From positions 124,001-188,000 of IMG/VR virus record IMGVR_UViG_3300032245_001746: DNA of 64,000 bases. One strand, given 5' to 3'. Position 1 is the stretch's first letter; each line of letters begins with the position of its first letter. The DNA is from a virus. The notes under the pieces are model-generated. The model was not told the DNA's origin and ran no database searches. It saw nothing but the letters and a program-made list of their open reading frames with translations. The translations under genes and the position numbers were made by a program. Positions 4,712-60,292 of this stretch are shown here, piece after piece.

Positions 4712-5236
4712 TTATCTTAATTCAATTTTTTTAGATTCACCAGCACTTGGAGAAAACACTAATTCTTTAATTTTTATTTTTTTACCAAAAAATTCTTTGT
4801 TGCCCACTAATTCTTGGCATTTTCCTTTTTTTACGTATGCTAGAGTACAATGAGGCTTATATCCATTATAAGTTGATGTATATTTTAAAGATTTTAATTT
4901 ATCATTTAATTTTCTTAATTTGTCGCTTTCAACTTCTATTTTTACAACATCATAATCATCATTTTCAAATTTACTTATTTTTCCTAATTTTATTTCAAAT
5001 TCTTTTTCGTCTTTAATTATTTCTTTAATTTCATCAAATTCTGTTGTGTGTAATCCGTATAATACAGTAACATGAGGTTCTGTTTCATATCCTGATTTAT
5101 TTTCTTTATAATATAAATCATCTTTAGAAATATTTTTTTTAGCCCAACTTAATATTTTATCATATTCTACTGTTGCCATTACACATGAATAAGTGTATGA
5201 TTCGTTTAAAACAACCCAATTTTTAAAATCTAACAT
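4712..5236 (-). CDS. Tagged 2H phosphoesterase (2'-5' RNA ligase / cyclic phosphodiesterase fold)
   Basis: The protein carries both hallmark HxT motifs of the 2H superfamily: EPHVTVLYG (His55, Thr57) and KPHCTLAYV (His129, Thr131). Members hydrolyse 2'-5' or 2',3'-cyclic phosphodiester bonds; T4 57B (Acb1) is a phage member that degrades cyclic oligonucleotide messengers of CBASS defence. The first 12 residues (MLDFKNWVVLNE) form the window's capsid-targeting-like tag, and the enzyme domain starts right after it. Length (174 aa) fits tag plus one 2H domain. I see the fold with confidence; the substrate is unknown. Repair of RNA ends or nucleotide salvage are alternatives. Confidence 0.88.
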   Translation of the reverse strand: MLDFKNWVVLNESYTYSCVMATVEYDKILSWAKKNISKDDLYYKENKSGYETEPHVTVLYGLHTTEFDEIKEIIKDEKEFEIKLGKISKFENDDYDVVKIEVESDKLRKLNDKLKSLKYTSTYNGYKPHCTLAYVKKGKCQELVGNKEFFGKKIKIKELVFSPSAGESKKIELR

Positions 5237-11156: not shown

Positions 11157-11759
11157 CTAATAATAATGCACATTTGTGTTTTGATCTATATCATATGGAG
11201 TGTTCTTCAATATATTTATTGCCGTTCTAGTTTCAATTACTTTTGGGCTTATTAATGAAATAGGATTATCCCAATATACTTCTTCTACCGTTCCATGTTG
11301 TGGCATGTCAGTTGTTGTAAACATAATTGCAGAAATAGCTTCTGTCATATTTGCTTTTGTAAATCCTTTTGTTGTTAAATTTTTAAATTTTGGTTTTTCG
11401 AAATCTTTTGGATGAATTAGTTTATTAATATTTGATGCTTTATATATGCTAATGATATGATCAAATTGAACTTGAGGAACCCATTTTCCATACGTGCAAC
11501 TTATAGCAAAAACTCCTGCATTTCCGTAACCAAGTTTGTTTTCGTTAATAATTTTTTCAATATTTTCTTTTAAGGTAAAATGAATAAATTTATCTTTTTT
11601 TAATTCTAATTTGAAAAATTTTCTAGTATTATGTCTTTTCCAAAAATCTATTTGTTGAGAGTTATTTGGTTGTTTAGCCCAAATATTTTTACTAAATTCA
11701 CTTCCATGAAATTCTTCTTTGTCAAATTCTAAATTTTCAAACCACTTTTTAAAATTCAT
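11157..11759 (-). CDS. Tagged protein, possible ADP-ribosyltransferase-like fold
   Basis: Starts MNFKKWFENL (tag). Around residue 58 the sequence FIHFTLKENIEKIINENKL, followed by GVFAISCTYG, resembles the entry strand and helix of ADP-ribosyltransferase-like domains (pattern 'hHhT..NL..Il..gaL'). A late VEEVYWDNPISL could supply an acidic residue. The alignment is weak and catalytic residues cannot be assigned. T4 Alt is a capsid-targeted ADP-ribosyltransferase, which makes the idea attractive. Overlaps the upstream gene by 11 bp. Confidence 0.7.
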   Translation of the reverse strand: MNFKKWFENLEFDKEEFHGSEFSKNIWAKQPNNSQQIDFWKRHNTRKFFKLELKKDKFIHFTLKENIEKIINENKLGYGNAGVFAISCTYGKWVPQVQFDHIISIYKASNINKLIHPKDFEKPKFKNLTTKGFTKANMTEAISAIMFTTTDMPQHGTVEEVYWDNPISLISPKVIETRTAINILKNTPYDIDQNTNVHYY

Positions 11760-15510: not shown

Positions 15511-15870
15511 ATGAAAACATTTAAAGAATGGATGTTTAATGAAAATTTAAGTTTAATTCAAAGTTTTGCTCAACAAAATAATGTAGAATTAGATATTTAT
15601 GAATCATTTGATGACACAATAAAAATTTCAAGAATTTTTGTTCCTAAAGAATTGAGAAAACAAGGCTTGGGCACTAAAGTTCTCGAATTTGTTTGTAATT
15701 TTGCTGATTCTAATAATAAAATTATTTTATTGTCGCCATCAATTGATTTTGGTGCAACCTCGTTAAACAGATTATATTCTTTTTATTCAAAATTTGGATT
15801 TATTAAAAATAAAGGTAGAAAAAAGAATTATAAATACAGTGAAACTATGATTCGTTATCCAAATCGTTAA
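15511..15870 (+). CDS. Tagged GNAT-family acetyltransferase
   Basis: The first 11 residues, MKTFKEWMFNE, are nearly the consensus of the tag and very close to T4 MKTYQEFIAE. A compact GNAT domain follows: VPKELRKQGLGTKVLEFV contains the acetyl-CoA pyrophosphate loop RxxGxG (residues 49-54), and LNRLYSFYSKFGFIKNKG is the usual C-terminal 'Y.k.GF' motif. 119 aa is short but sufficient for a minimal GNAT. A packaged and injected acetyltransferase acting on a host protein is a reasonable inference; the target is unknown. Confidence 0.85.
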   Translation: MKTFKEWMFNENLSLIQSFAQQNNVELDIYESFDDTIKISRIFVPKELRKQGLGTKVLEFVCNFADSNNKIILLSPSIDFGATSLNRLYSFYSKFGFIKNKGRKKNYKYSETMIRYPNR

Positions 15871-28525: not shown

Positions 28526-29131
28526 TTATTTAATCACGTATCCAGTAATTGGATCGATTTTTGGAAGTTCTTCCAAGTTTTCATAATTGTAACTTTTTGG
28601 CAATTCCATCATTTTGCTTAAAGATTGTAAAAATTCAACATCTTCTTTTTTAACTTTTTTATCGTCACACTTTTCGTCTTTTTTGTCTTTTTCTTCTTTC
28701 TTTTCTTTTTTGTCTTTTTTATCGTCACACTTTTCGTCTTTTTTCATTTTCTTTTTCATGAAAAGTTTTTTATCACTTGATTCATCAGATTCATCTGAAT
28801 CTTCATCATCCATTTTATCTCTTAATTCATCATCTGACGATTCTTCGTCTTCTGGTGATTCTTCATTTCCTTTTTCATCATCTTTTTTAGGTAAATCTTT
28901 TTCAGATTTAGGTTTTACTGTTTCTCCGTCGCCTGTTGAATCTAATGGTTTTTCATCTTCTAATTCTTCACCACCATCTAATTCCATTTTCTTTTTCATT
29001 GCTTTCTTTTTTGCTTCTAAAATATCATAAAAAGCAGAAAGATTTGGATTAACAACGCTTTGGGCACTTTTTACACCTAATGATTGATCATAAGATTCAT
29101 TTATTTTTTGCCATTCTCTAAATGTTATCAT
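28526..29131 (-). CDS. Tagged, highly charged low-complexity protein
   Basis: Starts MITFREWQKINES (capsid-targeting-like tag). After about residue 50 the protein is dominated by Lys, Glu, Asp and Ser, with an acidic Ser-rich block (SPEDEESSDDELRDKMDDED) and a Lys block in which KKDEKCDDKK occurs twice. It ends in a more ordinary segment (LPKIDPITGYVIK). Such composition suits a DNA-condensing or space-filling internal head protein, comparable in style to T4 internal proteins. No enzyme domain. Confidence 0.8.
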   Translation of the reverse strand: MITFREWQKINESYDQSLGVKSAQSVVNPNLSAFYDILEAKKKAMKKKMELDGGEELEDEKPLDSTGDGETVKPKSEKDLPKKDDEKGNEESPEDEESSDDELRDKMDDEDSDESDESSDKKLFMKKKMKKDEKCDDKKDKKEKKEEKDKKDEKCDDKKVKKEDVEFLQSLSKMMELPKSYNYENLEELPKIDPITGYVIK

Positions 29132-30993: not shown

Positions 30994-32523
30994 ATGGTAA
31001 AATTAAATGAATTAGCATTACAATCATTAGATGTAAATACAGTTATCAATAACGCAGTAGACAAAGCTGAAGAGTTGATTAGAGGAGGACATATTCCTGA
31101 AACTGAACTTGTTGTTAATCAATTGTTAATAGTTGATCCTAAAAACATTAAAGGATTACAACTTAAAGGATTAATTGAATATAAAAAAGGAAATTATCAA
31201 GATTCAATTAGTTATGTAAATAAAGTAATAAAACTAGATCCTGATAATTCAGAAAACTATAATAATATAGCATTAGCTTATTTACATAGTGGACAACAAT
31301 TAAAAGCTTTTGAATGTTGCTCTAAAGCGTTAGAATTAAATGATAATAACTTTAATTACATTTGTAACTTAGCGTTAATTTTAAGATCACTTAATAAAAA
31401 TGAAGATGCTTTAAAATATTATAATAAAGCTTTATCTTTAGATTCAAATAATCCTATGGTTTGGGAGTCTATTGGATCTATTTATGGTCAGGAAAAAAAA
31501 TATGACTTGGCTATTGAGTGTTTTCTGAAAGCAATTGAGAAAAATTCTTCTTTTTTAGATTCTAGAATTGACTTGGCATATGCATATCATTTAACAGGAC
31601 AGTGGGAAAAAGCCTGGGATGAATACGAATATAGAATTCCTTATTGGAGAGAGCAAGGCAGAGGTCCTGGTGCATTTTTAAATTTTTACAAAGCAGAAAA
31701 AGCGTGGAATGGAAAAGATGATCTAAACAACAAGGTTGTAGTTGTTTTTTGTGAACAAGGTCATGGGGATTTAATTCAGTTTTTACGTTTTATACCTGAA
31801 TTAAAAGCTAAAGGATGCAAAGTAATTGTAGAAACATCAGAAAATACATTTAGTATTGTAAACAAATTTGCAGATGAAGTCAGAACTTATTTCAATACTG
31901 TTGAATATGATTATCATTGTTCTATTTTAAGTTTACCATATTTGTTGAATTTAAAAACGCCAGATAAGTTTAAATCTGATAAACCATATATTTTAGTTGA
32001 TGAAATATATGATATGTCAAATTATAAAGATACATTTAATATTGGAATTTGCTGGGCTGGTAATCCTGGACATCCAAATGATGCTTTAAGATCATGTCAT
32101 TTATCTAATTTTAGAGAATTATCTAAAATTCCAAAAGTTAAATTGTTTTCATTACAAAAAGATCTTTCAAAAAGAATTTATGCAAATATGCCAAATTTAG
32201 AAATAGATCTGGCAGATAATTGTCAGGATTTGAATGTTGTGGATACATCTGAATTGATGTCTGATTTTGAATCCACTGCAAAATTAATTAAATCTCTTGA
32301 TTTAATCATTACTGTAGATACTTCTGTATTGCATTTATCAGGAGCAGTTGGAGCAAAAACATTTGGTTTAATAGCACTTAATCCAGATTGGAGATGGACA
32401 AGTCAAGGTAGTACTAATGTTTGGTATGATTCTGTTGAATTAATCAGACAAAAAGATTTTAATAATTGGGATTCTGTTTTTGAAGAAATTTGTGAAAAAG
32501 TCAGAAAGTTAATTAATGAATAA
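30994..32523 (+). CDS. TPR-repeat glycosyltransferase (GT9/GT41-like)
   Basis: Residues ~20-215 form about five TPR units (for example KKGNYQDSISYVNKVIKLDP, NEDALKYYNKALSLDSNNP). The C-terminal half is a GT-B-like transferase: VVVFCEQGHGDLIQFLRFIP, NIGICWAGNPGHPND and LIITVDTSVLHLSGAVGAKT, motifs shared by heptosyltransferase-like and TPR-linked transferases. 509 aa. It overlaps a GT2-like gene by 8 bp. Likely glycosylates a virion protein or host surface; acceptor unknown. Confidence 0.85.
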   Translation: MVKLNELALQSLDVNTVINNAVDKAEELIRGGHIPETELVVNQLLIVDPKNIKGLQLKGLIEYKKGNYQDSISYVNKVIKLDPDNSENYNNIALAYLHSGQQLKAFECCSKALELNDNNFNYICNLALILRSLNKNEDALKYYNKALSLDSNNPMVWESIGSIYGQEKKYDLAIECFLKAIEKNSSFLDSRIDLAYAYHLTGQWEKAWDEYEYRIPYWREQGRGPGAFLNFYKAEKAWNGKDDLNNKVVVVFCEQGHGDLIQFLRFIPELKAKGCKVIVETSENTFSIVNKFADEVRTYFNTVEYDYHCSILSLPYLLNLKTPDKFKSDKPYILVDEIYDMSNYKDTFNIGICWAGNPGHPNDALRSCHLSNFRELSKIPKVKLFSLQKDLSKRIYANMPNLEIDLADNCQDLNVVDTSELMSDFESTAKLIKSLDLIITVDTSVLHLSGAVGAKTFGLIALNPDWRWTSQGSTNVWYDSVELIRQKDFNNWDSVFEEICEKVRKLINE

Positions 32524-33331
32524 AGTTTATTACAGAATAAGTGATAATAGTTATAAAAAAATAAAAATTCCTGGTACAAATAAACAGATATGTTTAATAA
32601 ATTTTTTATCTAATTTTCAAAATTTTGAAATTAACATTATTGCCGATAATGTTAATGATAATACTTTTGATTTTATTAAAAATTTATCTTTACAATATCA
32701 AAATGTAAATATTGAAAGAACTAATTACAGTAATGCTGGATCTTTTAATTATTGTTTAGATTTAGCTTTAATGAATGATTTTGAAACTGTTAATTATTTT
32801 GTTGAAGATGATTATATTCATAGAGAAAATTCTGAATTGTGTATTTTAGAGGGTTTAGAAAAATCTGATTATGTCACTTTGTTTGACCATCCAGATAAAT
32901 ATCAATCTGAATATCAATATGGAGAAACTTGTAAAGTTTTTAAAAGTAAAAATTATATTTGGAAAACTACAATTTCTACATGTATGACTTTTGCTGTTAA
33001 AACTAAAACTTTAAAAAAAGATTATGCTATTTTTAAACATTATTTGCATAATCAACAACATCCTAATGATCATTTGATCTTTTGTGATTTAAAATCAAAA
33101 GGAAGAACGCTTTCGCTCCCTTTACCAGGATTTGCATATCATACTGATTTAACTTATTTTAAGGATAAAAAGATATCAGATGATTTAATAGATTCTTGGG
33201 TTTTAAAAGAATCGCAAAATTTTTGTTTAATCTATCTAAATAAATATAAAAATTTAGATTTAGAAATTGAAAAAAATGAAAATTATAAGCAAAATTTATC
33301 AATGTTAGATATTGTTTTGTCTAATTATTAA
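32516..33331 (+). CDS. Glycosyltransferase (GT-A, GT2-like)
   Basis: 271 aa. The first part resembles a nucleotide-sugar-binding domain (QICLINFLSNFQNFEINIIA) and YFVEDDYIHRENSE supplies a DxD-like acidic metal site. Later DHPDKY and HPNDHLIFCDL are compatible with acceptor binding. Coupled by 8 bp overlap to the TPR-glycosyltransferase. Donor and acceptor unknown. Confidence 0.75.
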   Translation: MNKVYYRISDNSYKKIKIPGTNKQICLINFLSNFQNFEINIIADNVNDNTFDFIKNLSLQYQNVNIERTNYSNAGSFNYCLDLALMNDFETVNYFVEDDYIHRENSELCILEGLEKSDYVTLFDHPDKYQSEYQYGETCKVFKSKNYIWKTTISTCMTFAVKTKTLKKDYAIFKHYLHNQQHPNDHLIFCDLKSKGRTLSLPLPGFAYHTDLTYFKDKKISDDLIDSWVLKESQNFCLIYLNKYKNLDLEIEKNENYKQNLSMLDIVLSNY

Positions 33332-34613: not shown

Positions 34614-34645
34614 AGATTGAGAATACAATTTGAGGTTCTCAATCT
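34614..34645 (+). terminator. Rho-independent terminator
   Basis: AGATTGAGAA (34614-34623) pairs with TTCTCAATCT (34636-34645), followed by T8. Separates 34589 from the RNA ligase start. Confidence 0.85.
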
Positions 34646-34663
34646 TTTTTTTTGGACTTACCA

Positions 34664-35980
34664 ATGAGCAAATTAGTAGTTGAAGTTTGTCAAATTTCAA
34701 AAGTTTCTTCTCACCCTAATGCAGATAAACTTGATGTAATTCAAGTTAAAGGCTGGGATACAATTGTTTCAAAGGGTACGTTTAAAGAAGGTGATAAATG
34801 CATATTTTTCCCTCCAGATTCTGTACTTCAACCAGAACTTTATAATTCCCCAAATGATCCTATCACACCTGGAAGATTAAATAATTCAAATTATTTAAAA
34901 ACATTACCAACTGATTTTGAGGGAAATAAACCTAGTGGCAAAAGAGTTACTGCTTGTCGTCTAAGAGGCTCTGTGTCTTATGGATTGGCAATTCCTCTAG
35001 ATTTAAATTATGGCGATTTAGATTGGGATGTAGGCACTGATGTTTCTGAATTTTTTAAAGTAACTAAATACGAGCCACCAGTTGAATCTGTAATGGGCGA
35101 ATGTGAAAAGTTTAATTCAAGATTTTATCCATATAAAAGCATCGAACATTATGCTAATTTTACAGATCTATTTCAAGATGAAGAAGAAGTAATTTTTACC
35201 GAAAAGGTGCATGGAACCAATTCTAGAGTTGGATTAATTTTAGAACCAGACTCAACAGGAAATTCACAATGGACCTATGCCGCAGGTTCTCATTCTGTTA
35301 GAAGAAAAGAGTTTTCCAACATTGAAACCAGAGTTTTAGCTTCAAAACTTGAAGAAAAAAACATTAAAATTCTTAAAAAAGATGACGTTTCTTATTTTAA
35401 AGATGAAAATGGTATTTTTTGGATGATAAATCAAGAGATAATATCAGATATTGGTATGAAATATCAAGTCGTTCAAGTCAATTCAGATTTTGAATTGATT
35501 AAACGTAAATCTGATTATTGGTTACCATTAACAGAAAATATGAAAAATTTATTGAATTATTTAAAAGATAATTTTAAAACTGAAGAAACAATGCACTCTA
35601 TAATGATTTATGGAGAAATATACGGATTTGGAGTTCAAGATATGTGTTATGGTTTAAATCGTAAATCATACAAAGCTTTTGATATTGCTATTAATAATAT
35701 TTATCTTGATTATGATTATCAAATTGAATTATTTAATAAGTTTAACATTGAAGTTGTTCCTGTATTATATAGAGGACCATTTAGTCAAGAAAAAGTTAAA
35801 GAGTTTACTACTGGACCTACAACCATTTGTGATACAAAAAATGCTGGAAAATTTAAAGGAAGAGAAGGAATTGTGATTAAATCTGTTATTGAAAATAAAA
35901 TGTTTAACAAACCTAGAAAAATAGCAAAATCTGTTTCTGCTGATTATTTGTCAAGAGAAAATGGAACAGAGTTTCACTAA
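34664..35980 (+). CDS. RNA ligase, Rnl5/DraRnl-like (OB domain plus nucleotidyltransferase)
   Basis: ATP-dependent ligase that seals RNA ends. The N-terminal ~110 residues are an OB-fold like that of Deinococcus RNA ligase (VCQISKVSSHPNADKLDVIQ, EGDKCIFFPPDSVL). Motif I with the adenylated lysine is TEKVHGTNSRVG (Lys181). Motif IV-like REGIVIKS and a later KIAKSVS motif V complete the core. 438 aa. ATG 34664 is used rather than the TTG at 34652. First gene of the tight unit with Nudix (9 bp gap) and Thg1-like polymerase (4 bp gap), which suggests RNA end repair. Confidence 0.9.
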   Translation: MSKLVVEVCQISKVSSHPNADKLDVIQVKGWDTIVSKGTFKEGDKCIFFPPDSVLQPELYNSPNDPITPGRLNNSNYLKTLPTDFEGNKPSGKRVTACRLRGSVSYGLAIPLDLNYGDLDWDVGTDVSEFFKVTKYEPPVESVMGECEKFNSRFYPYKSIEHYANFTDLFQDEEEVIFTEKVHGTNSRVGLILEPDSTGNSQWTYAAGSHSVRRKEFSNIETRVLASKLEEKNIKILKKDDVSYFKDENGIFWMINQEIISDIGMKYQVVQVNSDFELIKRKSDYWLPLTENMKNLLNYLKDNFKTEETMHSIMIYGEIYGFGVQDMCYGLNRKSYKAFDIAINNIYLDYDYQIELFNKFNIEVVPVLYRGPFSQEKVKEFTTGPTTICDTKNAGKFKGREGIVIKSVIENKMFNKPRKIAKSVSADYLSRENGTEFH

Positions 35981-35989
35981 AGGAAAAAT

Positions 35990-36391
35990 ATGAAATTAGA
36001 ATCTTTTGGAACTTTACTTTATAGAAAAATTAATTCAAAAATAGAAGTTTTACTTGTACACCCATCAGGAAAGTCAGATCAAGCATGGTCTATTCCAAAA
36101 GGAAATAAAAATGATGGTGAAAAAGGAATCGAAGCAGCAGTAAGAGAAACTTTGGAAGAAACTGGAGTTTCAATCAACATTGAAGATTTACATTCATTTG
36201 GTTATGTTGTATATAAATCAAAGAAAGTCGTTCATTGTTATGCGGCTGAAGTGGGTCCAGAAATAAAACCAATTTGTAATTCTTGGGAAGTTGATAAAGC
36301 AGAATTTGTTGAAATAAATAAAACTTTAACAATTATTCATAAAAAACAAGCAGAATTTATTTCTAAATTAATACAACAATTGAAAGTTTAA
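35990..36391 (+). CDS. Nudix hydrolase
   Basis: A complete Nudix box spans residues 38-60: G38, E44, R52-E53, E56-E57, G59 in the pattern Gx5Ex7REUxEExGU. The N-terminus (FGTLLYRKINSKIEVLLVHP) and IPKGNK resemble diadenosine-polyphosphate hydrolases. 133 aa is usual. The placement between RNA ligase and Thg1-like genes suggests clean-up of adenylated, capped or dinucleotide intermediates; ADP-ribose or NAD derivatives are also possible substrates in this NAD-rich cluster. Confidence 0.92.
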   Translation: MKLESFGTLLYRKINSKIEVLLVHPSGKSDQAWSIPKGNKNDGEKGIEAAVRETLEETGVSINIEDLHSFGYVVYKSKKVVHCYAAEVGPEIKPICNSWEVDKAEFVEINKTLTIIHKKQAEFISKLIQQLKV

Positions 36392-36395
36392 AATC

Positions 36396-37400
36396 ATGAA
36401 AATCAAAAAAGATTCTCTCGGAGACAGAATCAAATATTATGAGTCGTTTTGTACAAACACAAGATTATATCATACTATTCCAATTATTATAAGACTTGAT
36501 GGGTGCTCGTTTCATGTCTTTACGAAAGGTTTAAATAGACCATTTGATGAAAGACTTTCTCATTGTATGTTAGAAACAACAAAATTTCTTTGCAAAGAAG
36601 TTAATGCAACTATTGGATATACTCAATCTGACGAAATAACTCTTGTTTTAGGTACTCAAAATTTTGATAGTAAAGTATACTTTGATGCTAAACTTTTTAA
36701 ATTAACTTCTGTTTTAGCTTCTAAGGCAACAGTTAAATTTAACGAGTTGATACGTCAAAATTTACCAGAAAAAGCAAGTAAAAATCCAGTATTTGATTGC
36801 AGGATTTTTAACGTTCCTTCAGAAGAAGAGGCTATTAATTGTTTAATTTGGCGTCAAAATGATGCTAAAAGAAATGCTATTTCAATGGCAGCACAAGCAA
36901 AATTTTCTCACAAAGAATTGCATGGTAAATCTTCTAAGCAAATGTTGGAGATGTTAGAAGCTAAAAATGTTGATTTTAAAAAGTATCCAGGATTTTTCAA
37001 AAATGGAGTTTTTGTTAAAAAGAAAACTTTAACATTCTTAAAAGAATGTTTTGTTAAAATAAATCCAGACAACCTTGTTGTATCCAATAATAGTTTAACT
37101 TCTATTAAAGATTATAGATGGTATATTGAGGAAATTAATTCTAAAAAGTCTATAATTAGATACTCAGATGGATCAATTAATTTAAGTTCTGTAGCTGTAA
37201 CTTATTTAAAATCAGAACAAGAAGCTGAAGATTTAAAAAACTTTATATCTAATGTTTGTGCTAAATTTAGTTTAGAGGATTCTCCAGAATCTTTTACAAG
37301 AAATAATTGGGAAAATGTTTTTGAAGATTTAGAATTATCAAATCTTGAAAACAGAGTTGATTTTGTTTACCGAAACACTGATCCAATTTTTAAAAAGTGA
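36396..37400 (+). CDS. Thg1-like 3'-5' RNA polymerase (tRNA-His guanylyltransferase family)
   Basis: Adds nucleotides in the 3'-5' direction to tRNA 5' ends; bacterial and phage Thg1-like proteins repair truncated tRNAs. Seen: IIIRLDGCSFHVFTKGLNRP (metal-binding Asp35), GYTQSDEITLV (residues 74-83, second metal site Asp79/Glu80) and NAISMAAQAKFSHKELHGKS, all classic Thg1 motifs. 334 aa is slightly longer than typical. It sits 4 bp after Nudix and in the same unit as the RNA ligase, followed by a terminator. Confidence 0.93.
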   Translation: MKIKKDSLGDRIKYYESFCTNTRLYHTIPIIIRLDGCSFHVFTKGLNRPFDERLSHCMLETTKFLCKEVNATIGYTQSDEITLVLGTQNFDSKVYFDAKLFKLTSVLASKATVKFNELIRQNLPEKASKNPVFDCRIFNVPSEEEAINCLIWRQNDAKRNAISMAAQAKFSHKELHGKSSKQMLEMLEAKNVDFKKYPGFFKNGVFVKKKTLTFLKECFVKINPDNLVVSNNSLTSIKDYRWYIEEINSKKSIIRYSDGSINLSSVAVTYLKSEQEAEDLKNFISNVCAKFSLEDSPESFTRNNWENVFEDLELSNLENRVDFVYRNTDPIFKK

Positions 37401-37410
37401 TTTACAATTG

Positions 37411-37446
37411 ACACTGATTGCAAATAGAGTAGTTTGCAATCAGTGT
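37411..37446 (+). terminator. Rho-independent terminator after the RNA-repair unit
   Basis: Perfect 14-bp arms, ACACTGATTGCAAA (37411-37424) and its complement (37433-37446), followed by T-rich sequence. Separates the Thg1-like gene from the nicotinamidase gene. Confidence 0.85.
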
Positions 37447-37470
37447 TTTGTTTTTATTAAAGGGTTTAAA

Positions 37471-38346
37471 ATGAGAAAAATAGATTTGGTAATTATTGAT
37501 CCGCAAAATTCATTTTGCAAAGTTGTTCCACAAGCAGATCAACAAGTTATCCATGATGGAGAACTCTGTGTTCCTGGTGCGTGGGAAAGTATGGCAGTTA
37601 GATTGCCAAAAATGATTGAAAAATCAAAAAAAATGTTTAAGTCAATTAGTGTTACTTTGGATAGCCATAATCCATTCCATATTGCACACCCTTGCTTATA
37701 TAAAGATTCAAAGGGAAATCAACCATCACCATTTACCATCATGCGACAAGAAAATGGTTCAATTATTGGTAGCGTGTTTAATGCATCAACCAATCAATTT
37801 GTTGATGTGGGAGAATATTTTGGTATTAAACCAAGTCTTCACAAAATAATTGTTGAATATTTGATTAAGCTTAAAGCTTTAAACAAATTTCCACATTGTA
37901 TTTGGCCACCACACTGTTTAATTGGAACTTCTGGTCATAATGTTGTACAACCTCTTGCACAAGCTTTGTTTGACTGGACCCAAAGAACAATTGCAAATGT
38001 TGATTATGTTACAAAAGGATCAAATCCTTTCGTTGAACATTTTTCTGCTGTTAAAGCAGAAGTAGAAGATCCGGGAGATCTATCAACACAATTGAATACA
38101 GATTTCATTAAGAAACTCGATGAATCTGACGAGATTGTGTTTGCTGGTGAGGCAAGAAGTCACTGTTTAAATAACACGGTTCGAGATATTGTAGATTCGT
38201 TTTCTGATGATTCTTTCGTTAAGAAATGCGTGTTGCTTCTTGACGCTTGTGATGACGTGCCTGGATTTGAATCATACGGAGAATCTTTTGTTAAAGATAT
38301 GACGGCACGTGGTATGAGAGTTGCTCAAACTACTGATTATGTATAA
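37471..38346 (+). CDS. pncA: Nicotinamidase / isochorismatase-like hydrolase
   Basis: Nicotinamidase converts nicotinamide to nicotinate for NAD+ salvage. Seen: catalytic Asp10 in VIIDPQNSF, metal-binding histidines in LDSHNPFHIAHP, PPHCLIGTSGHNV and the nucleophile Cys232 in GEARSHCLNNTV. 291 aa is longer than typical PncA (about 200), with extra loops. ATG 37471 is chosen because the open upstream extension runs through the terminator and the previous gene. NadE and NadD in the same cluster strongly support the NAD reading; generic isochorismatase activity is the alternative. Confidence 0.82.
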   Translation: MRKIDLVIIDPQNSFCKVVPQADQQVIHDGELCVPGAWESMAVRLPKMIEKSKKMFKSISVTLDSHNPFHIAHPCLYKDSKGNQPSPFTIMRQENGSIIGSVFNASTNQFVDVGEYFGIKPSLHKIIVEYLIKLKALNKFPHCIWPPHCLIGTSGHNVVQPLAQALFDWTQRTIANVDYVTKGSNPFVEHFSAVKAEVEDPGDLSTQLNTDFIKKLDESDEIVFAGEARSHCLNNTVRDIVDSFSDDSFVKKCVLLLDACDDVPGFESYGESFVKDMTARGMRVAQTTDYV

Positions 38347-38365
38347 TTTATAGAAAGGCATAGAA

Positions 38366-39091
38366 ATGTCTAGTGAAAATTTAAGTTCAGGTTTAGATTT
38401 AAATAAAGGTAAAACTTTTAATTTTTCTTCCACAAATATTAATGATCTAGGAGCAGACAGTTATACGCTTGTAACAATAGCTGTCGATACAAGCGGAAGC
38501 ACTTCTTGTTTCATTGATAAAATGGAAAAATTACTTAAAGAAATTGTAAGAGCATGCTCTTTAGATCCAAGAGCAGACAATTTAATGATAAGAATTGTCA
38601 CATTTGATTCACAAGTTTCTGAATTGCATGGCTTTAAACTTTTATCCTCTATCAATCAAGACGATTATCAAGGATCTTTAAGATCAGGCGGAATGACAGC
38701 ATTAAATGATGCTTCTGTCAATTCGATTGAAGGTATCAATAAATATGGAAGAGATTTGCTCGAAAAAGAATTTGGAGTAAACGGATTTTTTATCTGTATA
38801 ACAGATGGTCAAGATAATCAATCGGCTTTACCAGCCTCACGAGTTGCATCTTCTTTAAAAGAATCTGTCAATGGAGAAAACTTGGAATCAATGCTTTCAA
38901 TTTTAATTGAACTTGGTGATTCGACTGAATTGGACAGATTCTACAACGAAGTAGGATTTGATCAACATGTTAAAATTGAAGATGTAACCGAGTCTTCTTT
39001 TGCAAAACTTGCTGGATTTATTAGTAAATCAATCAGTAGTCAAAGCCAAGCCTTAAACAGTGGAGGACCAAGTAAGCCTCTTACATTTTAA
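38366..39091 (+). CDS. TerY-like von Willebrand factor A domain protein
   Basis: The metal-ion-dependent adhesion site is complete: DTSGS (residues 41-45), Thr111 in SGGMTALND and Asp147 in ITDGQDN. 241 aa, essentially one vWA domain, no signal peptide. It starts 19 bp after the nicotinamidase gene with an SD (AAAGG). The same unit contains a PP2C phosphatase and a kinase, giving the three components of the TerY-P triad described by Anantharaman, Iyer and Aravind. Likely a signalling scaffold; partners unproven. Confidence 0.87.
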   Translation: MSSENLSSGLDLNKGKTFNFSSTNINDLGADSYTLVTIAVDTSGSTSCFIDKMEKLLKEIVRACSLDPRADNLMIRIVTFDSQVSELHGFKLLSSINQDDYQGSLRSGGMTALNDASVNSIEGINKYGRDLLEKEFGVNGFFICITDGQDNQSALPASRVASSLKESVNGENLESMLSILIELGDSTELDRFYNEVGFDQHVKIEDVTESSFAKLAGFISKSISSQSQALNSGGPSKPLTF

Positions 39092-39175
39092 TTTTTGTAA
39101 ATAATAAATGTTATTACTCAGATATCTTATCAGATTCAACTATATAAAATTATATAATTTGATAAGGAGTTTAAT

Positions 39176-39923
39176 TTGATTAATTATAGATTTGGTGATT
39201 GGACGGTAATAAAAAAAGTAACAAATATTGAAAAAACAAAAAATTGTAAAACTTATTGGATTTGTCGTTGTAAGTGTGGTTTTGAAAGAAATTTCACTAC
39301 TTCTTACATTAATACAAATCAAGCAACATGTTGTGATCAATGTAAATTTGAAATTAAATTGTCTAAAGATAAAGAAATTCGCGAAAAATATTTAAATACC
39401 AAACATGGAACTTGGGAAGTAATTTCATATTGTGGTAAAAATAAGCATGGTAGTCGCATTTGGATGTGCAGATGCGAGTGTGGAAAAGAAAGAACTTTTT
39501 TAACATCTTATCTTTCTGGAAACGGAAAAAGATCTGCACAAATATGCAAAAATTGTGAATTGAAAAATTTAGAATTAGAAAATAGAATTTTTTTATATAC
39601 CTGATAGATTTTGGTATAAATTTACAAATTCATCACAACGCAGGAACAAATCTGTAGAGATAACAAAAGAACAAGCTAATGATATTTATTTGAAACAAAA
39701 TAAAAAATGTGCATATACGAATATAGATTTATATTTTACTAAATTTAATACTAATTTTAACAGATATACAAATGCATCAATTGATAGAATTGATTCTAGT
39801 AAACCATATACGCTGGAAAATATTCAGTGGGTTGATAAAAAAATTAATATTATGAAAAGTTCTTATAAATCAGAAGAATTTATTAAACTGTGCTGTTTGG
39901 TATCGAAAAAATTTACATTTTGA
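39176..39923 (+). pseudogene. HNH homing endonuclease broken by a frameshift
   Basis: The first frame (39176-39604, TTG start with SD AAGGAG 8 bp upstream) encodes two Cys-rich zinc modules (WICRCKCG ... CDQC and WMCRCECG ... CKNC). It stops just after a T7 run at 39588-39594. One base over, the frame continues without a gap: DRFWYKF, EITKEQANDIYLKQNKKCAY and the HNH-type SIDRIDSSKPYTLENIQWVD, ending at 39923. A one-base change in the T7 run restores a single protein of about 250 residues. Either a pseudogene, a sequencing error or, less likely, programmed slippage. It sits between the vWA gene and nadE. Confidence 0.82.
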
Positions 39924-39942
39924 TTTTTCAATCAATTGAAAC

Positions 39943-39984
39943 AAAGCCGTTCGAATGAGATTTACTTTTCATTCGAACGGCTTT
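39943..39984 (+). terminator. Rho-independent terminator-like hairpin before nadE
   Basis: Perfect 16-bp arms AAAGCCGTTCGAATGA (39943-39958) and its complement (39969-39984) with a 10-nt loop. No long T-run follows, so termination may be partial, or it may act as a processing site. Confidence 0.7.
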
Positions 39985-40031
39985 ATCATTTGGTGTCTGC
40001 TTTATTTGTTGAATTTTTAAGGAAATTGAAA

Positions 40032-42068
40032 ATGGAAGATCTTATTAGAGTTGCATGTTGTTCACCCGAAGTTTTTGTTTCTAATCCTGTTAAAAACAGA
40101 ATTGAAATATTGAAGGCAATAAATAAACATGCAAAAAATGCTGATGTTATCGTGTTTCCAGAATTATCTATTACAGGATATACTTGTAAAGATTTATTTC
40201 TTAAAGAAGAATTGTTAAATTCAAGTTTGAAAGAAGTTATAAATTTAGCAAAGGAAATTCCAAGAAACAAATTAGTATTTGTTGGTTGCCCATTACAATT
40301 AAGTAATGGCAAAATAGCTAATTGTGCATTTGGACTTAATGATGGAGTTATTAAAGGCATTGTTCCAAAACAATATTTGCCAAATTATAAAGAATTTGAA
40401 GAAAAAAGATGGTTCACTCAGGATTTAACGGAAGAAATTGATATTGTTTTAGAAAACAATTGTCATGTTCCTTTTGGTTCTAATATTATTTTTCTTTTTG
40501 GAAAAGCAAGAATGGCTGCAGAGGTATGTGAAGATTTATTTGCTCCAATTCCACCATCTACATTTACCGCTATGGCTGGAGCAAATATAATTGTAAATTT
40601 GAGTGCTTCAAATGAACTTATTGGAAAAGCAGAATATAGAAGAAAGTTGGTCGAACAACAAAGTGCCAGAACTCTATCTGCATATATTTATTGTTCTGCT
40701 GGTCCAACTGAATCAACCACCGATTTAGTTTTTGGTGGTCATAATATTATTTCAGAAAATGGTTCTATTTTAAAACAAAGTGAAAGATTTAAAGATTTTT
40801 CATATATCGAATATGATATTGATGTCCAGAAACTTAATCTTGAAAGAAGTGGTAATCCAACTTTTTCTGATTGTCAAAAAAGATTTGTTAAACCTGAAAA
40901 TTTCACATGGGTTCCTATTAATTTGAATCCAAATTTAAAACAAGATATTTTAAGACCAAAAGTTAAAAATCCATTTTTGTCTAATGACCCACAGGTGATG
41001 GAATCAGTATGTGATGAAATTATAAATATTCAAATATGTGCTTTAAAGAAAAGACTAAGTAGACTATCAAGTAGTAAAACTGTAATTGCGGTTTCTGGAG
41101 GATCTGATTCTACTGTAGCTTTATTGTCACTATGTGCAGCATATGATTCAATTGGATTTTCAAGAAAAGACATTTTGGGTATTACCATGCCAGGTTTTGG
41201 AACAAGTAACAGAACCAAAAATAATTCAGATGCTTTAATGGCGAGTCTTGGAATTACTCAAAAAGTAATTGATATTAAGCCAACAGCAACACAAACTTTC
41301 ATTGATATGAATCATATTCCATTCAAAGATTATAATATAACTATAGATGGAATAGAAATGAGCGTTGAAGAATATTTCAGAGGCAAACCTTCTAATTTAA
41401 CAGTTGAAGAAATTAGTAAAGTTCTAAATTATTTGCCTTCAAACGCTAAAGATTTAACGTTTGAAAATGTTCAAGCTAGACTTCGCACATTTTATGCAAT
41501 GAGTAGCGGATTTACTGTTGGAACTGGGGATTTATCAGAAGCAGCACTTGGTTGGTGTACATATAATGGTGATCATATGTCTATGTATAATCCTAATTGT
41601 ACTATTCCAAAAACATTGATTAAGTCATTAATTTTACATTTTGCTAATAATTATTCAAATTATTTCACTCAAGAACTTGGTGGAGATTTAAGTAAAATAT
41701 TAAATTCAATTTATGAAACTGTCATATCTCCAGAACTTTTGCCTTTAAAAGATGGCGAGATTGTTCAGTCTTCTGAAGAAAGTGTTGGATCTTACAACTT
41801 AAATGATTTTTTCTTATATAACTTTATCAGAAACAATTTTTGTTTTTCTAAAATATTAGATTATGCTGTACACTCATATGAAGATGAATATACTAAAGAA
41901 GAAATTGAAAAGTGGTTGAAGTTATTTTTTAAGAGATTTTTTCAGGCACAGTTTAAACGTTCTTGCTGTCCAGATGGACCAAAAGTAGGATCAGTAGGAT
42001 TATCACCAAGAGGTGATTGGAGAATGCCATCAGATGCAGATTTTGATTTATGGTGCAACAATGAATGA
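40032..42068 (+). CDS. nadE: Glutamine-dependent NAD+ synthetase
   Basis: Makes NAD+ from nicotinate adenine dinucleotide, ATP and glutamine. The N-terminal nitrilase-type glutaminase has its triad Glu44 (VFPELS), Lys113 (VPKQYLPNY) and Cys166 (AAEVCEDLF). The C-terminal synthetase has the ATP pyrophosphatase loop SGGSDS (355-360) and GTGDLSEAALGWCTYNGDH. 678 aa, full length. ATG 40032 (SD AAGGAAA) is chosen; the frame's upstream extension crosses the hairpin. It overlaps the next gene by 8 bp and so leads the NadE/PP2C/NadD/kinase unit. Confidence 0.96.
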   Translation: MEDLIRVACCSPEVFVSNPVKNRIEILKAINKHAKNADVIVFPELSITGYTCKDLFLKEELLNSSLKEVINLAKEIPRNKLVFVGCPLQLSNGKIANCAFGLNDGVIKGIVPKQYLPNYKEFEEKRWFTQDLTEEIDIVLENNCHVPFGSNIIFLFGKARMAAEVCEDLFAPIPPSTFTAMAGANIIVNLSASNELIGKAEYRRKLVEQQSARTLSAYIYCSAGPTESTTDLVFGGHNIISENGSILKQSERFKDFSYIEYDIDVQKLNLERSGNPTFSDCQKRFVKPENFTWVPINLNPNLKQDILRPKVKNPFLSNDPQVMESVCDEIINIQICALKKRLSRLSSSKTVIAVSGGSDSTVALLSLCAAYDSIGFSRKDILGITMPGFGTSNRTKNNSDALMASLGITQKVIDIKPTATQTFIDMNHIPFKDYNITIDGIEMSVEEYFRGKPSNLTVEEISKVLNYLPSNAKDLTFENVQARLRTFYAMSSGFTVGTGDLSEAALGWCTYNGDHMSMYNPNCTIPKTLIKSLILHFANNYSNYFTQELGGDLSKILNSIYETVISPELLPLKDGEIVQSSEESVGSYNLNDFFLYNFIRNNFCFSKILDYAVHSYEDEYTKEEIEKWLKLFFKRFFQAQFKRSCCPDGPKVGSVGLSPRGDWRMPSDADFDLWCNNE

Positions 42069-42312
42069 ATATGAAGACGAATCTTATTATCAAACTTATA
42101 TTGGATTGATAGAATATTTAAAACTTCATGATTATAAAAGAATCTATTTAGCTAACATGATGTCTCTCCACAAAGATGATATTAAAAAAATGAATTTGTT
42201 TATGTCATTTGATGAAATTCTTGTATCATCAAATGACCAAATAAATTTAACTATAGAAAAAATACAAAAAGCTTTTAATATTAATTTGAAAAAAGGAAAT
42301 GTTCAAATATGA
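42061..42312 (+). CDS. Small protein embedded in the NAD/signalling unit
   Basis: 83 aa (MNEYEDESYYQTYIGLIEYL...), overlapping NadE by 8 bp and the PP2C gene by 4 bp (ATGA), so clearly translated with them. KRIYLANMMSLHKDDIKKMN and a Lys-rich end suggest an alpha/beta fold. No family recognised; may be an accessory of NadE or PP2C. Confidence 0.72.
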   Translation: MNEYEDESYYQTYIGLIEYLKLHDYKRIYLANMMSLHKDDIKKMNLFMSFDEILVSSNDQINLTIEKIQKAFNINLKKGNVQI

Positions 42313-43109
42313 TTTTTAATCAAGATAATTTTTTATCAATTGGAAGTACGCATGAAATATGTCAAGATTATTCATTGCTTAATGATAAATTTATTGCCGT
42401 ATCAGATGGTTGTTCCGGAAGTAATTTAAGTGATTATGGATCTAGAATTATAACAAAATCTTCTTTAAATAATCAAAACAATTTTGAAGATAAAGAAGCT
42501 TTTGTTAAAACAACAATTAATTCTTCAAAAGAAATTATAAATCATCTTGAACTTCAAGAAGATTGTCTTTGTGCAACATTATTGGCTTGTAAGGCAAATG
42601 AAGATTTTTTTGATGTTTTAATTTGTGGTGATGGAACCATAGTTTGTGAAGATAAATCAAATAATTTGCATGTTTATGAATATTCATATGAATCAGGTGC
42701 TCCTTTTTACCCATTATATCTTCAAAATAAAGATTTAATAAAATTATATTTAGAAAAATTTGGATCATATCACACTTTGAATTATTATAAATATAATTTA
42801 ATAAATTTTGATTTGATTGAGTTTACAACTAGTAAAATTCCCATTAATGAAAATTTAAATACACATAAGTTTCCAACATCTGAATTTATTAGTGTTGCTT
42901 TATTTTCTGATGGTTTGAATTCATTTCAAGTGAAATCAAATAAAACGATTTATTCAAGCAAAAAAGTTCTACAGGATTTGTATGATTTTAAAGGATACAC
43001 TGGTAGATTCTTACTGAGAAGATGCAGAAAGCAGTTCTCTATTTTTGAACAAAATGGTATATCTCATTACGATGATTTTTCTATGGCTATGATAAGGACA
43101 TTAAATTGA
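42309..43109 (+). CDS. PP2C-type serine/threonine phosphatase
   Basis: Metal-dependent phosphatase. Seen: FIAVSDGCSGSNLSDYGSRI (first Asp/Gly metal motif), VLICGDGTIVC, ALFSDGLNSF (motif with SDG) and HYDDFSMAMI (final Asp of the site). 266 aa. It is coupled to NadD downstream (ATGA overlap at 43106) and precedes a kinase in the same unit, so kinase and phosphatase probably act on the same target, with the vWA protein as the third partner. Confidence 0.88.
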   Translation: MIFNQDNFLSIGSTHEICQDYSLLNDKFIAVSDGCSGSNLSDYGSRIITKSSLNNQNNFEDKEAFVKTTINSSKEIINHLELQEDCLCATLLACKANEDFFDVLICGDGTIVCEDKSNNLHVYEYSYESGAPFYPLYLQNKDLIKLYLEKFGSYHTLNYYKYNLINFDLIEFTTSKIPINENLNTHKFPTSEFISVALFSDGLNSFQVKSNKTIYSSKKVLQDLYDFKGYTGRFLLRRCRKQFSIFEQNGISHYDDFSMAMIRTLN

Positions 43110-43666
43110 AAAAAGTTGTTATCTTTGGAACATCTGGAAACCCAATCCATATTGGACATGAATTAATAATTAAAGAAATTTCTAAACATTTTGATGAAGT
43201 GTGGGTTTGTCCTTCTTATAAATCATCAATTAAAAATTTAATTGATTCAAAACACAGATTGAAAATGACTGAAATTTCGGTTAATTCGTTAAATAACGAT
43301 AAAGTTAAAATTTTTGACCATGAAATAAAAAATAAAATTTCCGTAAACACATATGATTTTTTAAAATATTTAAAATCCACTTTCTCAGATAAACAATTTT
43401 ACTTTGGTATAGGTGCAGATAACACTAAAGATATATTAAATTGGAAAAATTCAAATGATCTTATAAATGAAAACAACTTTTTAATCTTTAAAAGAAAAGG
43501 TTATGATTTAAATGTAAATATTTTTAAATCATATGAGACAATTGATGTTGAATTTATTGATGTGAGTTCTACTTATATAAGAAATAATATTAGAAATGAA
43601 AATGTTAAAAGTCTTCTGAATCCAGAAGTTTACAATTACATTGTTGAAAACAATCTCTATTTTTAG
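43106..43666 (+). CDS. nadD: Nicotinate/nicotinamide mononucleotide adenylyltransferase
   Basis: Transfers AMP to nicotinate mononucleotide, the step before NadE. Seen: FGTSGNPIHIGH (residues 7-18, nucleotidyltransferase HxGH with His15 and His18) and VSSTYIRNNIR (the ISSTxxR motif). 186 aa is standard for NadD. It overlaps PP2C by 4 bp and is 7 bp from the kinase gene. Together with nicotinamidase and NadE it covers all but one step (nicotinate phosphoribosyltransferase) of the Preiss-Handler route. Confidence 0.93.
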   Translation: MKKVVIFGTSGNPIHIGHELIIKEISKHFDEVWVCPSYKSSIKNLIDSKHRLKMTEISVNSLNNDKVKIFDHEIKNKISVNTYDFLKYLKSTFSDKQFYFGIGADNTKDILNWKNSNDLINENNFLIFKRKGYDLNVNIFKSYETIDVEFIDVSSTYIRNNIRNENVKSLLNPEVYNYIVENNLYF

Positions 43667-43673
43667 GTGAATC

Positions 43674-45392
43674 ATGAAGTATTTTATAAAAGGTGGCGAC
43701 TCAGTAGATCTTTCTCAAAAAGATTTTATTGCATCTGGTGGTTTTGGCAAAGTTTATAAAAAAAATAATTTTGCATACAAAATATATGATAATCCATCCA
43801 ATATGCTTCCAATTGAAAAAATATCAGAATTAGCAGTATTAAAAGATCAAGATATAATAAAGCCAGAGAGAATAATTACAAATTCATCTAAAGAATTTGT
43901 AGGTTACACAATGCGTTACGTAAAAGGTTCTCCTATATGCAAAATGTTTACACACACTTTCAAAAAGAACAATAAAATAACAGACAAAATTTGTTTATCG
44001 CTTTTGAGCAAATTTTATACAAAAATAGAACATGTACATTCTAACAATATTTTGTTGGTAGACGTAAACGAACTTAATTTTTTAGTAAATGATTCGTTTA
44101 ACGAAATTTATTTTATAGATACAGATGGCTATCAAACTAAATCATTTAAAGCCACTGGCATAATGGATAGTATTAGAGATCGACATTGTCAAAATAATGA
44201 CTTTAATGAAAATACTGATTGGTTTTCTTGGGGAATACTTGCTTGTCAATTAATTACTGGACTCCACCCTTATCGTGGAGGGCATCCTGATTTTGACAAT
44301 ATTGATCTTGCTAAAAGAATGGATGCAAGAATGATTAAAAATATTTCTATTTTTAATTCAAAAACCAAACTTCCTCCTTTTATTAAAAATTTTGATAATA
44401 TTCCATCTGCACTTAAACAATGGTTTATTTCAGTTTTTGAAAATGGCAAAAGGATTAAACCTCCAAAAGACTTTGACTCAGTAATTATATTGACTCCAAT
44501 TAATGTAAAGGAAATAACAGGAACAAACTTATTTGATATATCTTTACTTTATTCTTTCAAACAAGAATTAATTAAATATAAAGAAATAAATGGAGATAAA
44601 TTTGCATTGTTGAATGATAAATTAATTTTTAACGATAAGTCTTACAATATTCCAAATGTAAAATCTGAATTGTTTTTTAATGTTCCATCTTCTTTAAATA
44701 AACCATTTGTTTATTACATAGAAAATGAAACATTAAAATGTTTTGATTGCATTTATCAAACAGAAATTGAATGTTCTTTAAAATCTACTGATATTTTTCA
44801 AGTTGATGATAGAATTTATTATGTAAATAAAGATAAATTTTATGAAATTGAAATTATTAAATTATCAAATAAAGTAATTGTTGAATCTAATTCTGTAGGA
44901 AATGCATTAGATATTCCTAATGCAACCAAATCATTTGATGGAACATTAATGCAAAACATGTTGGGAAGACATTATTTTTCAATTAATCCTAAATCTAGAT
45001 TCAGCTATCAAATAGGAATTAAAGAATTAGATTCTTATACAGTTATTGATGCGAAATATGAAAAAAATGTTTTAATAGTTTCTGCAATTACCAGAAAAGG
45101 TATTAATGAAAAATTTGTAATTAGATTTAATTCTAATTATACTTCTTATTCTTTAAGAAAGATATCTAATGTTCAAAATTCTGATGTTAATTTTACAGTA
45201 AATCAATCTGGAATTTGCATATTCCTAGTTGATGACTCAAATATAGAAATATTTTCTAATAATTCTGAGACAACTTCTGTTAAATCATTTAATGATCAAA
45301 GTATAGATACTAGTATGATCCTAACATCCAATGCATCAAAAGTAATGTTTGTAAAAGATAAATCAGTTTATTCTATATCTGTTAAAAACTAA
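43674..45392 (+). CDS. Serine/threonine kinase-like protein of the vWA-PP2C-kinase triad
   Basis: Residues 18-38 form the Gly loop and ATP-binding Lys (IASGGFGKVYKKNNF, AYKIY, Lys36). The catalytic region reads VHSNNILLVDVNELNFLV with YFIDTDGYQT for the metal motif. This 'D(V/L)N..NfLv ... IDTDsyQ' form, without HRD, is characteristic of kinases in TerY-P triads. DWFSWGILACQLITGLHPYR is a normal kinase C-lobe. From about residue 290 to 572 a beta-rich, possibly propeller, domain follows. It closes the unit started by NadE. Confidence 0.86.
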   Translation: MKYFIKGGDSVDLSQKDFIASGGFGKVYKKNNFAYKIYDNPSNMLPIEKISELAVLKDQDIIKPERIITNSSKEFVGYTMRYVKGSPICKMFTHTFKKNNKITDKICLSLLSKFYTKIEHVHSNNILLVDVNELNFLVNDSFNEIYFIDTDGYQTKSFKATGIMDSIRDRHCQNNDFNENTDWFSWGILACQLITGLHPYRGGHPDFDNIDLAKRMDARMIKNISIFNSKTKLPPFIKNFDNIPSALKQWFISVFENGKRIKPPKDFDSVIILTPINVKEITGTNLFDISLLYSFKQELIKYKEINGDKFALLNDKLIFNDKSYNIPNVKSELFFNVPSSLNKPFVYYIENETLKCFDCIYQTEIECSLKSTDIFQVDDRIYYVNKDKFYEIEIIKLSNKVIVESNSVGNALDIPNATKSFDGTLMQNMLGRHYFSINPKSRFSYQIGIKELDSYTVIDAKYEKNVLIVSAITRKGINEKFVIRFNSNYTSYSLRKISNVQNSDVNFTVNQSGICIFLVDDSNIEIFSNNSETTSVKSFNDQSIDTSMILTSNASKVMFVKDKSVYSISVKN

Positions 45393-59521: not shown

Positions 59522-59547
59522 TATTTATTAATCTAATGATGGAATTT
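59522..59547. repeat. 26-bp direct repeat, right copy
   Basis: Identical to 57981-58006 and includes the last codons and stop of the tagged kinase-like gene (59528). Confidence 0.85.
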
Positions 59548-60292
59548 CTGATTGTTTTACATCTCTTCCATACTTTCTTGAGTGTCCAAAATCAAAAGAT
59601 TGTAATTTATTTTTATTATTTAATCCCAAATTGTCAGGAGACCAATCATGTCCTATGGAATATCCAGTTTTTTTAAACACCTTTTCCATTAATTTTATAA
59701 TTTGATTTGCAAAATCCAAAACCATTGGATCTTCTGGGCGTCCAGCCATCCAATAATTAAATTCTTTTATGTTAAATTTGGTTGGAACTTTAGTTTTATC
59801 TTTGTTTTCATCTTCTAAATCAGAAATAAATTGATAAACTAAATAAGTTGCATCATGTATTTCAATATCTATTTTTTTAAAATCAGTATTTAACTCTTTC
59901 ATTGCAATTAAATACATTCCCTGATATGTAATAACATCAACAACCGGAAAGCTTGCATCTCCTTTCATTAAATAAGCTATATTTGCCTCATCTACTCCTT
60001 TTGTAAATTTAACTACATATTTATTTCCTAAAAACAATACGCATCCTTCCATTCCACACTTGGTTTTATTATGTGATCCAGGAATAAATTTTGAATTAAA
60101 TTTTCTAATCCAATTACATAAGGTTCCACAAGAATTTCCATCCATTAATTCTTGTGGAACCTTAGATATTACATTATCTTCATTAAAAACATCTGAAGAA
60201 TAGAGTTTTTTCAAACCAAACACCACCCTCTCAGCAGTTTGCATTAAAAAACTTGTTTGTCTTTCTGTTATTAACCATTCTTTGAAATTCAT
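59528..60292 (-). CDS. Tagged protein kinase-like protein
   Basis: 254 aa. Starts MNFKEWLITERQ (tag ending in Glu). A kinase-like core follows: GMEGCVLFLGNKYVVKF (Gly-loop and candidate ATP-binding Lys), VVDVITYQGMYLIAMKEL and, near the C-terminus, the catalytic loop GHDWSPDNLGL with SFDFGHS (complete DFG). A paralogue lies at 62319. T4-type packaged kinases are not well known, so this would be an unusual injected effector. Confidence 0.8.
   Translation of the reverse strand: MNFKEWLITERQTSFLMQTAERVVFGLKKLYSSDVFNEDNVISKVPQELMDGNSCGTLCNWIRKFNSKFIPGSHNKTKCGMEGCVLFLGNKYVVKFTKGVDEANIAYLMKGDASFPVVDVITYQGMYLIAMKELNTDFKKIDIEIHDATYLVYQFISDLEDENKDKTKVPTKFNIKEFNYWMAGRPEDPMVLDFANQIIKLMEKVFKKTGYSIGHDWSPDNLGLNNKNKLQSFDFGHSRKYGRDVKQSEIPSLD

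Follow-up and report, generated by a model that had tools for sequence, protein, structure and literature searches.

We analysed a stretch of 64,000 nucleotides (hereafter the window) covering positions 124001-188000 of the 319,857-base phage record IMGVR_UViG_3300032245_001746, which comes from a giant bacterial virus. The window encodes, in this order and all on the + strand, an ATP-dependent RNA ligase of the Rnl5 type (34664-35980), a Nudix hydrolase (35990-36391) and a Thg1-like protein (TLP) of the 3'-5' RNA polymerase family (36396-37400). The ligase and TLP genes are also linked in six other, divergent phages, and we lean towards the view that the two enzymes form a phage RNA-repair pair, which would restore and reseal RNAs damaged by host nucleases and so keep translation going. 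The most likely substrates would be tRNAs, of host or phage. An earlier note on this DNA had described the three genes as a repair unit ending at a strong terminator. Its open reading frames (ORFs) are intact and lie where it had placed them, separated by 9 and 4 bp, and the active sites that it had named (Lys181 in the ligase, Asp35 and Asp79/Glu80 in the TLP, and the Nudix box) proved correct to the residue.

Conservation of the ligase-TLP pair in other phages

Thg1-like genes are frequent in large phages, being found in 125 GenBank phage records and at least 548 IMG/VR stretches. A single-protein viral scan with the window TLP as query returned no close relatives, and profile scans were therefore used to find them. 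Six further phage contigs (L033, L036, L052, L064, L108 and L117) have a Thg1 gene downstream of an orthologous ligase gene on the same strand, at distances of ~40, 1, 1407, -1, 724 and ~900-1100 bp, respectively. Identities to the window proteins range from 34 to 44% for the ligases and from 43 to 51% for the Thg1 proteins. Because the two genes are tightly linked in these divergent phages, whereas in 16 other Thg1-bearing phages encoding a PF09414 ligase the nearest one lies 14-128 kb off, we consider the ligase and the TLP a real, lineage-specific pair. Their linkage has survived large sequence divergence within the lineage of the window phage. A general co-location of Thg1 with RlaP, Rnl1, RtcB or polynucleotide kinase (PNK) was also considered on 92 loci and rejected, since, roughly estimated, it did not exceed what large phages with several such genes would show anyway; the tight ligase-Thg1 linkage alone was thus taken as evidence.

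The RNA ligase and the Thg1-like protein

The ligase (438 aa) matches the Pfam families RNA_ligase (PF09414, 3e-18) and PHA02142 OB (PF21189, 2e-13), the latter corresponding to an N-terminal OB module, and passes the DraRnl equivalog model of NCBIfam (TIGR02306, 157.8 bits for a cutoff of 151.15). The nucleotidyl Lys181 lies within the sequence EKVHGTN. Motifs I (KxxG), III, IV and V are present, and K181, E318, E401 and K422 are invariant across 26 sequences. The AlphaFold2 (AF2) model has a predicted local distance difference test score (pLDDT) of 90, and its top fold match is NgrRnl (6vtf, Z 30.8), with 324 residues aligned over positions 2-436. Weaker matches were obtained with T4 Rnl2 (Z 19) and with T4 Rnl1 (Z 13.5), the latter for the catalytic domain only; when the protein was tested as an Rnl1-type ligase, an end-to-end alignment with NgrRnl was found instead. 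By its profiles and modelled fold, the window ligase is thus assigned to the Rnl5 clade (DraRnl/NgrRnl) and would be of the nick-sealing type. The studied members of this clade seal 3'-OH/5'-PO4 nicks in duplex RNA. The window ligase shares with DraRnl and NgrRnl the OB module, the four motifs, the TIGR02306 score and, with NgrRnl, the whole-protein fold, but it is ~100 aa longer, with internal insertions, and nick sealing is for this enzyme a prediction.

The TLP (334 aa) matches the Pfam family Thg1 (PF04446, 1e-30). Profile matches in the three-gene region include phrog_968 (6e-50) and the Thg1-like phrog_4717 (1e-81). Its sequence is related to that of the Bacillus thuringiensis TLP (BtTLP, 4kgk; phmmer 4e-43, 37% identity), and its AF2 model aligns with chain 4kgm_B (VIA-align, Z 26.4, root mean square deviation 1.8 over 225 residues). 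Asp35 lies within RLDG and Asp79/Glu80 within QSDE, all three residues being invariant in the relatives. The activation site distinguishes BtTLP, with K43 and M158, from the true yeast Thg1, with N161 instead. Counted on the BtTLP alignment, K44 and M164 of the window protein align with K43 and M158, and the catalytic residues are the same as in BtTLP. Sequence and model alike thus predict a BtTLP-type protein. It differs from BtTLP by an insert of ~65 aa in the C-terminal region (approximately residues 246-314), modelled with low confidence and without counterpart in the aligned relatives.

The Nudix hydrolase and the limits of the transcription unit

The Nudix hydrolase (133 aa) matches PF00293 (1e-14) and is preceded by a good Shine-Dalgarno sequence (AAGGA). 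Its Nudix box follows the consensus GX5EX7REUXEEXGU from G38 to V60 (G38-x5-E, then R52-E-T-L-E-E-T-G), the first U being occupied by Thr. The nearest solved structures by sequence are Ap4A hydrolases (PDB 3i7u, 4e-8; 1ktg, 2e-7); among phage proteins it resembles the NudE-like ones most, and its matches to RppH models (4e-5) fall far below the cutoff. Bacterial homologues, from Melainabacteria and Myxococcales, are 46-54% identical. Four of the low-GC bacterial Nudix loci were inspected gene by gene and displayed no RNA link.

An intrinsic terminator is located 3' of the TLP gene at 37410-37455 (+), with a 16-bp stem and a T-tract (37410-37447), in agreement with the earlier note. Its fold (folding free energy, dG, -24 kcal/mol; z -5.7) was matched by none of 200 shuffles. 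That note had overlooked a second, terminator-like hairpin at 34615-34653 (+), formed by GATTGAGAA and TTCTCAATC and followed by a T-tract (dG -19.7, z -5.3), which ends ~10 nt 5' of the ligase ATG. The three genes are therefore bracketed on either side. Promoter-like matches in their region are at chance level (26 for 22.8 expected), none of them prominent. We consider it probable that the ligase and TLP genes share one transcription unit.

Several observations weigh against the repair pair, or against the Nudix hydrolase as a part of it. With a terminator-like hairpin upstream and no clear promoter, the co-transcription of the genes is uncertain. In L112/L116, L113 and L115 the ligase is present and no Thg1 was found on the contigs, which are possibly fragments. 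No relative has a Nudix gene between ligase and Thg1, and no RNA-repair neighbours of the bacterial Nudix homologues were detected among 28 loci with the queries used. The genes for the putative healing enzymes are distant from the trio (~86 kb for the kinase, Macro and CCA genes, ~30 kb for the 2H gene; see below). Finally, the TLP and the ligase could act on different RNAs. The absence of Nudix from the pairs of the relatives led us to reject conservation of the whole trio and, together with the neighbourhoods of its bacterial homologues, to regard the hydrolase as an accessory outside the conserved core. Of the repair unit put forward in the earlier note, the intact ligase and Thg1-like genes thus stand, and their conserved pairing shows that they belong together, whereas Nudix as an obligate member is not supported.

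Healing enzymes and tRNAs

The earlier note had proposed to look for a kinase/phosphatase healing enzyme in the rest of the genome. A PNK-like kinase, a 2H phosphoesterase and a CCA-adding enzyme are indeed encoded, all of them outside the unit. The kinase, a P-loop protein, is at genome positions 73481-74203 (match to the phrog polynucleotide kinase profile, 3e-11); its gene overlaps a Macro-domain gene at 74196-74621 (the pair being L006:13481-14621) and is unlinked from Thg1. No obvious phosphatase domain was seen in the kinase, HAD phosphatases lying outside the survey. The 2H phosphoesterase, a candidate healing enzyme for 2',3'-cyclic phosphate ends, is encoded in the window at 4712-5236 (-) and matches PF13563 (1e-11) and TIGR02258 (8e-8). 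The CCA-adding enzyme gene starts at genome position 246550. RtcB, RlaP and KptA were looked for in the phage record, itself possibly incomplete, and none of them was found. The kinase and Macro genes, the CCA enzyme, the 2H phosphoesterase, the tRNAs and a transfer-messenger RNA (tmRNA) in the same genome were all counted as support for the repair pair.

In a separate survey, a motif resembling the T4 capsid-targeting N-terminal motif (MxxFKxWxxxE) was found in 38 of 451 ORFs, compared with 15 (maximum 28) in shuffles. The ORFs concerned include those at window positions 4174-4698, 4712-5236, 11157-11759, 15511-15870, 28526-29131, 59528-60292 and 62319-63101. The 2H phosphoesterase being among these proteins, it may be packaged.

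About 20 tRNAs were predicted in the record. Thirteen of the tRNA genes form a cluster at L007:2602-4880, all of them for Leu, Ser, Tyr or Phe. The predicted tmRNA is located at L004:9678-10043 (-), with the tag GETVRLAA.

This tRNA complement could suggest that the TLP works on tRNAs encoded by the phage itself, by adding G-1 to tRNA-His or by editing the 5' ends of mismatched acceptor stems, independently of the ligase. In protists, mitochondrial tRNAs have their 5' ends edited by TLPs. We nevertheless hold this role to be very improbable: there is no tRNA-His gene among the predicted tRNAs, and the linkage to the ligase would be left unexplained. Moreover, in the ARAGORN output (tRNAs 11-13 of the cluster falling outside it), positions 1-3 of the acceptor stems shown are paired, so that the TLP is not needed for editing them, and its candidacy as an editor of phage tRNAs was rejected.

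Possible repair mechanism

Characterised TLPs add nucleotides in the 3'->5' direction opposite a base-paired template. From the properties of the enzyme families, repair by the ligase-TLP pair could proceed as follows. The distant PNK-like kinase and the 2H phosphoesterase would clean the RNA ends. The TLP would activate a 5'-phosphate with ATP or GTP and add the missing nucleotides 3'->5' opposite the paired template, and the ligase would seal the resulting 3'-OH/5'-PO4 nicks held in duplex. In what is the weakest step, the Nudix hydrolase would most likely hydrolyse the App-, Gpp- or ppp-RNA that the TLP and the ligase leave behind, and so return the 5' end to a ligatable 5'-phosphate. BtTLP accumulates App- and Gpp-tRNA intermediates in vitro (PMC6471195; PMC8131947), and such molecules are a plausible target for a Nudix hydrolase of the Ap4A type. 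Because both the ligase and the TLP pass via adenylylated RNA and BtTLP accumulates these intermediates, we infer by analogy a chemically sensible clearing role for Nudix.

The earlier note had favoured a repair of cleaved tRNAs in which lost 5' nucleotides are restored before sealing. Applied to T4-style cleavage of the anticodon loop, the TLP would replace the nucleotide lost at the break before the ligase seals. Three separate tRNA-Lys(UUU) genes (on L013, L015 and L016) are consistent with this model, tRNA-Lys being the target of PrrC in T4 biology, and since the 3'-end nucleotidyltransferase RlaP was not found in the record, a 5'-side enzyme could substitute for it. However, an anticodon-loop break lacks the paired template opposite which TLPs extend, so that filling at such breaks is doubtful and this part of the note's proposal is not supported. 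Rnl5 ligases are duplex nick sealers, the T4 enzyme for the anticodon-loop job being Rnl1; an Rnl1-like ligase does occur elsewhere in the genome (1951-3279), and no bifunctional Pnkp was found in the island that comprises the trio. We therefore give this model the lowest probability of all those considered. Both enzymes would be better suited to a truncated acceptor stem, or to a gap in an RNA duplex, than to an anticodon-loop break.

A more ambitious extension of the repair pair can be envisaged, in which all three enzymes repair gaps in duplex RNA: the TLP would fill 3'->5', Nudix would make a 5'-monophosphate from a 5'-triphosphate or from stalled App/Gpp ends and the ligase would seal, in what would be the RNA equivalent of short-patch repair of DNA, deployed together with deamido NAD+ salvage as one counter-defence island. 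This scheme is speculative and we consider it unlikely.

The neighbouring NAD+ salvage genes

Past the terminator, an island of genes at 37471-45392 (+) mixes deamido NAD+ salvage functions with others. Its first gene encodes a nicotinamidase-like protein (PncA, 37471-38346; NCBIfam PRK11609, 4e-5, below the cutoff of that model), whose catalytic triad D10/K182/C232 is invariant in 5 phages. It is followed by a vWA-like protein (38366-39091), so named by inspection of its sequence and synteny only, without Pfam match and with a hit to phrog_7371 of unknown function (3e-7); this gene is kept beside PncA in L100, L103, L112 and L115 and is present in L052. Then come a glutamine-dependent NAD+ synthase (NadE, 39936-42068; NCBIfam NF002730, 725 bits for a cutoff of 473), a PP2C-type phosphatase (42309-43109; PF13672, 1e-11), a nicotinate-nucleotide adenylyltransferase (NadD, 43106-43666; TIGR00482, 126 bits for a cutoff of 112) and a protein kinase-like protein (43674-45392; PF00069, 3e-8).

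Subsets of the island genes, together with a nicotinate phosphoribosyltransferase, follow the ligase or the ligase-Thg1 pair in L033, L036, L052, L112 and L115. No match to PF04095 or PF17767, and thus no nicotinate or nicotinamide phosphoribosyltransferase, NadV-like ones included, was found in the record of the window phage, which is possibly incomplete. The window phage differs in this from the NadV-NadM/NadR route of other phages (PMC9503650), encoding PncA, NadD and NadE instead.

This neighbourhood underlies the main rival to the repair pair, namely that the genes are independent tools of a counter-defence or nucleotide island, neighbours because all of them counter host defence and without any common RNA. 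The ligase would then act on nicks, the TLP on the 5' ends of tRNA acceptor stems, and Nudix on ADP-ribose, Ap4A or NAD-derived nucleotides for NAD+ salvage. The continuation of the island with PncA, NadE, PP2C, NadD and the kinase fits this division of labour, as does the continued proximity of the ligase to NAD genes in L112 and L115, where no Thg1 was found. The same can be said of the likeness of Nudix to Ap4A hydrolases and phage NudE, and of its occurrence uncoupled from Thg1: in L113 a 45% identical Nudix lies 0.4 kb after the ligase on a contig devoid of Thg1. On the other hand, the adjacency of ligase and Thg1 is tight and recurrent (1 or -1 nt in L036 and L064), beyond a loose co-location. 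A set of independent tools is accordingly a possible, though less probable, explanation. The presence of PncA, NadD and NadE beside the trio, with PncB in relatives, suggests that RNA-repair and NAD+-restoring counter-defences are kept together.

Other features of the surroundings were noted. Subsets of deamido NAD+ genes with PncB recur in L033, L036, L052, L100, L103, L112 and L115. Upstream of the ligase, a TPR-glycosyltransferase gene and further glycosyltransferase genes (window 30994-33331) keep their order in L033, L036 and L052. The gene at window positions 60303-61583 (-) encodes, by eye, a DUF1501-type sulfatase-like protein, planctomycete-like and unusual for a phage, which may hint at the host.

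Relation to known systems and significance

The earlier note had presented the unit as a non-T4 solution to tRNA cleavage, the general idea of which had already been published. Bacterial Thg1 genes adjoin PNK, Macro and RNA ligase genes, for which a repair role was proposed in 2010, and the Thg1 of phage 201phi2-1 was suggested to be an anti-defence RNA repair enzyme (Anantharaman, Iyer, Aravind 2010, PMC2904730). The window phage has in common with these neighbourhoods the association of Thg1 with an RNA ligase as RNA repair, and a kinase-Macro pair is found in its genome too. It differs from them by a probable operon in which an Rnl5 ligase gene is directly upstream of the TLP gene with Nudix inserted, by the 86 kb separating the kinase-Macro pair from it, and by the NAD island that follows. 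In jumbo phages, ATP-grasp RNA ligases, PNK, 2H, the CCA enzyme and sporadic Thg1 were reported, Thg1 being placed among the RNA-repair enzymes, with a suggested role in restoring 5' nucleotides (Iyer et al. 2021, PMC7824862, section 3.4.9). A Thg1-ligase linkage is not described in that section, and RlaP, the usual partner, is among the enzymes not found in our searches of the record. With T4 Pnkp/Rnl1 the window phage shares phage-encoded RNA sealing, but its unit has a ligase of another family, no linked Pnkp and an extra 3'-5' polymerase.

As far as the literature consulted shows, the new elements are the lineage-specific, probable ligase-TLP operon, the Rnl5 and BtTLP classes of its enzymes and its tie to an NAD+ salvage island. 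Bacterial and phage TLPs, which add nucleotides in the reverse direction, have been linked to RNA repair mostly through gene context. A TLP kept beside a predicted nick-sealing ligase across large sequence divergence names a partner for this enzyme. At the level of gene content and order, the linkage supports the long-standing suspicion that phages may use reverse RNA polymerisation against RNA damage inflicted by the host.

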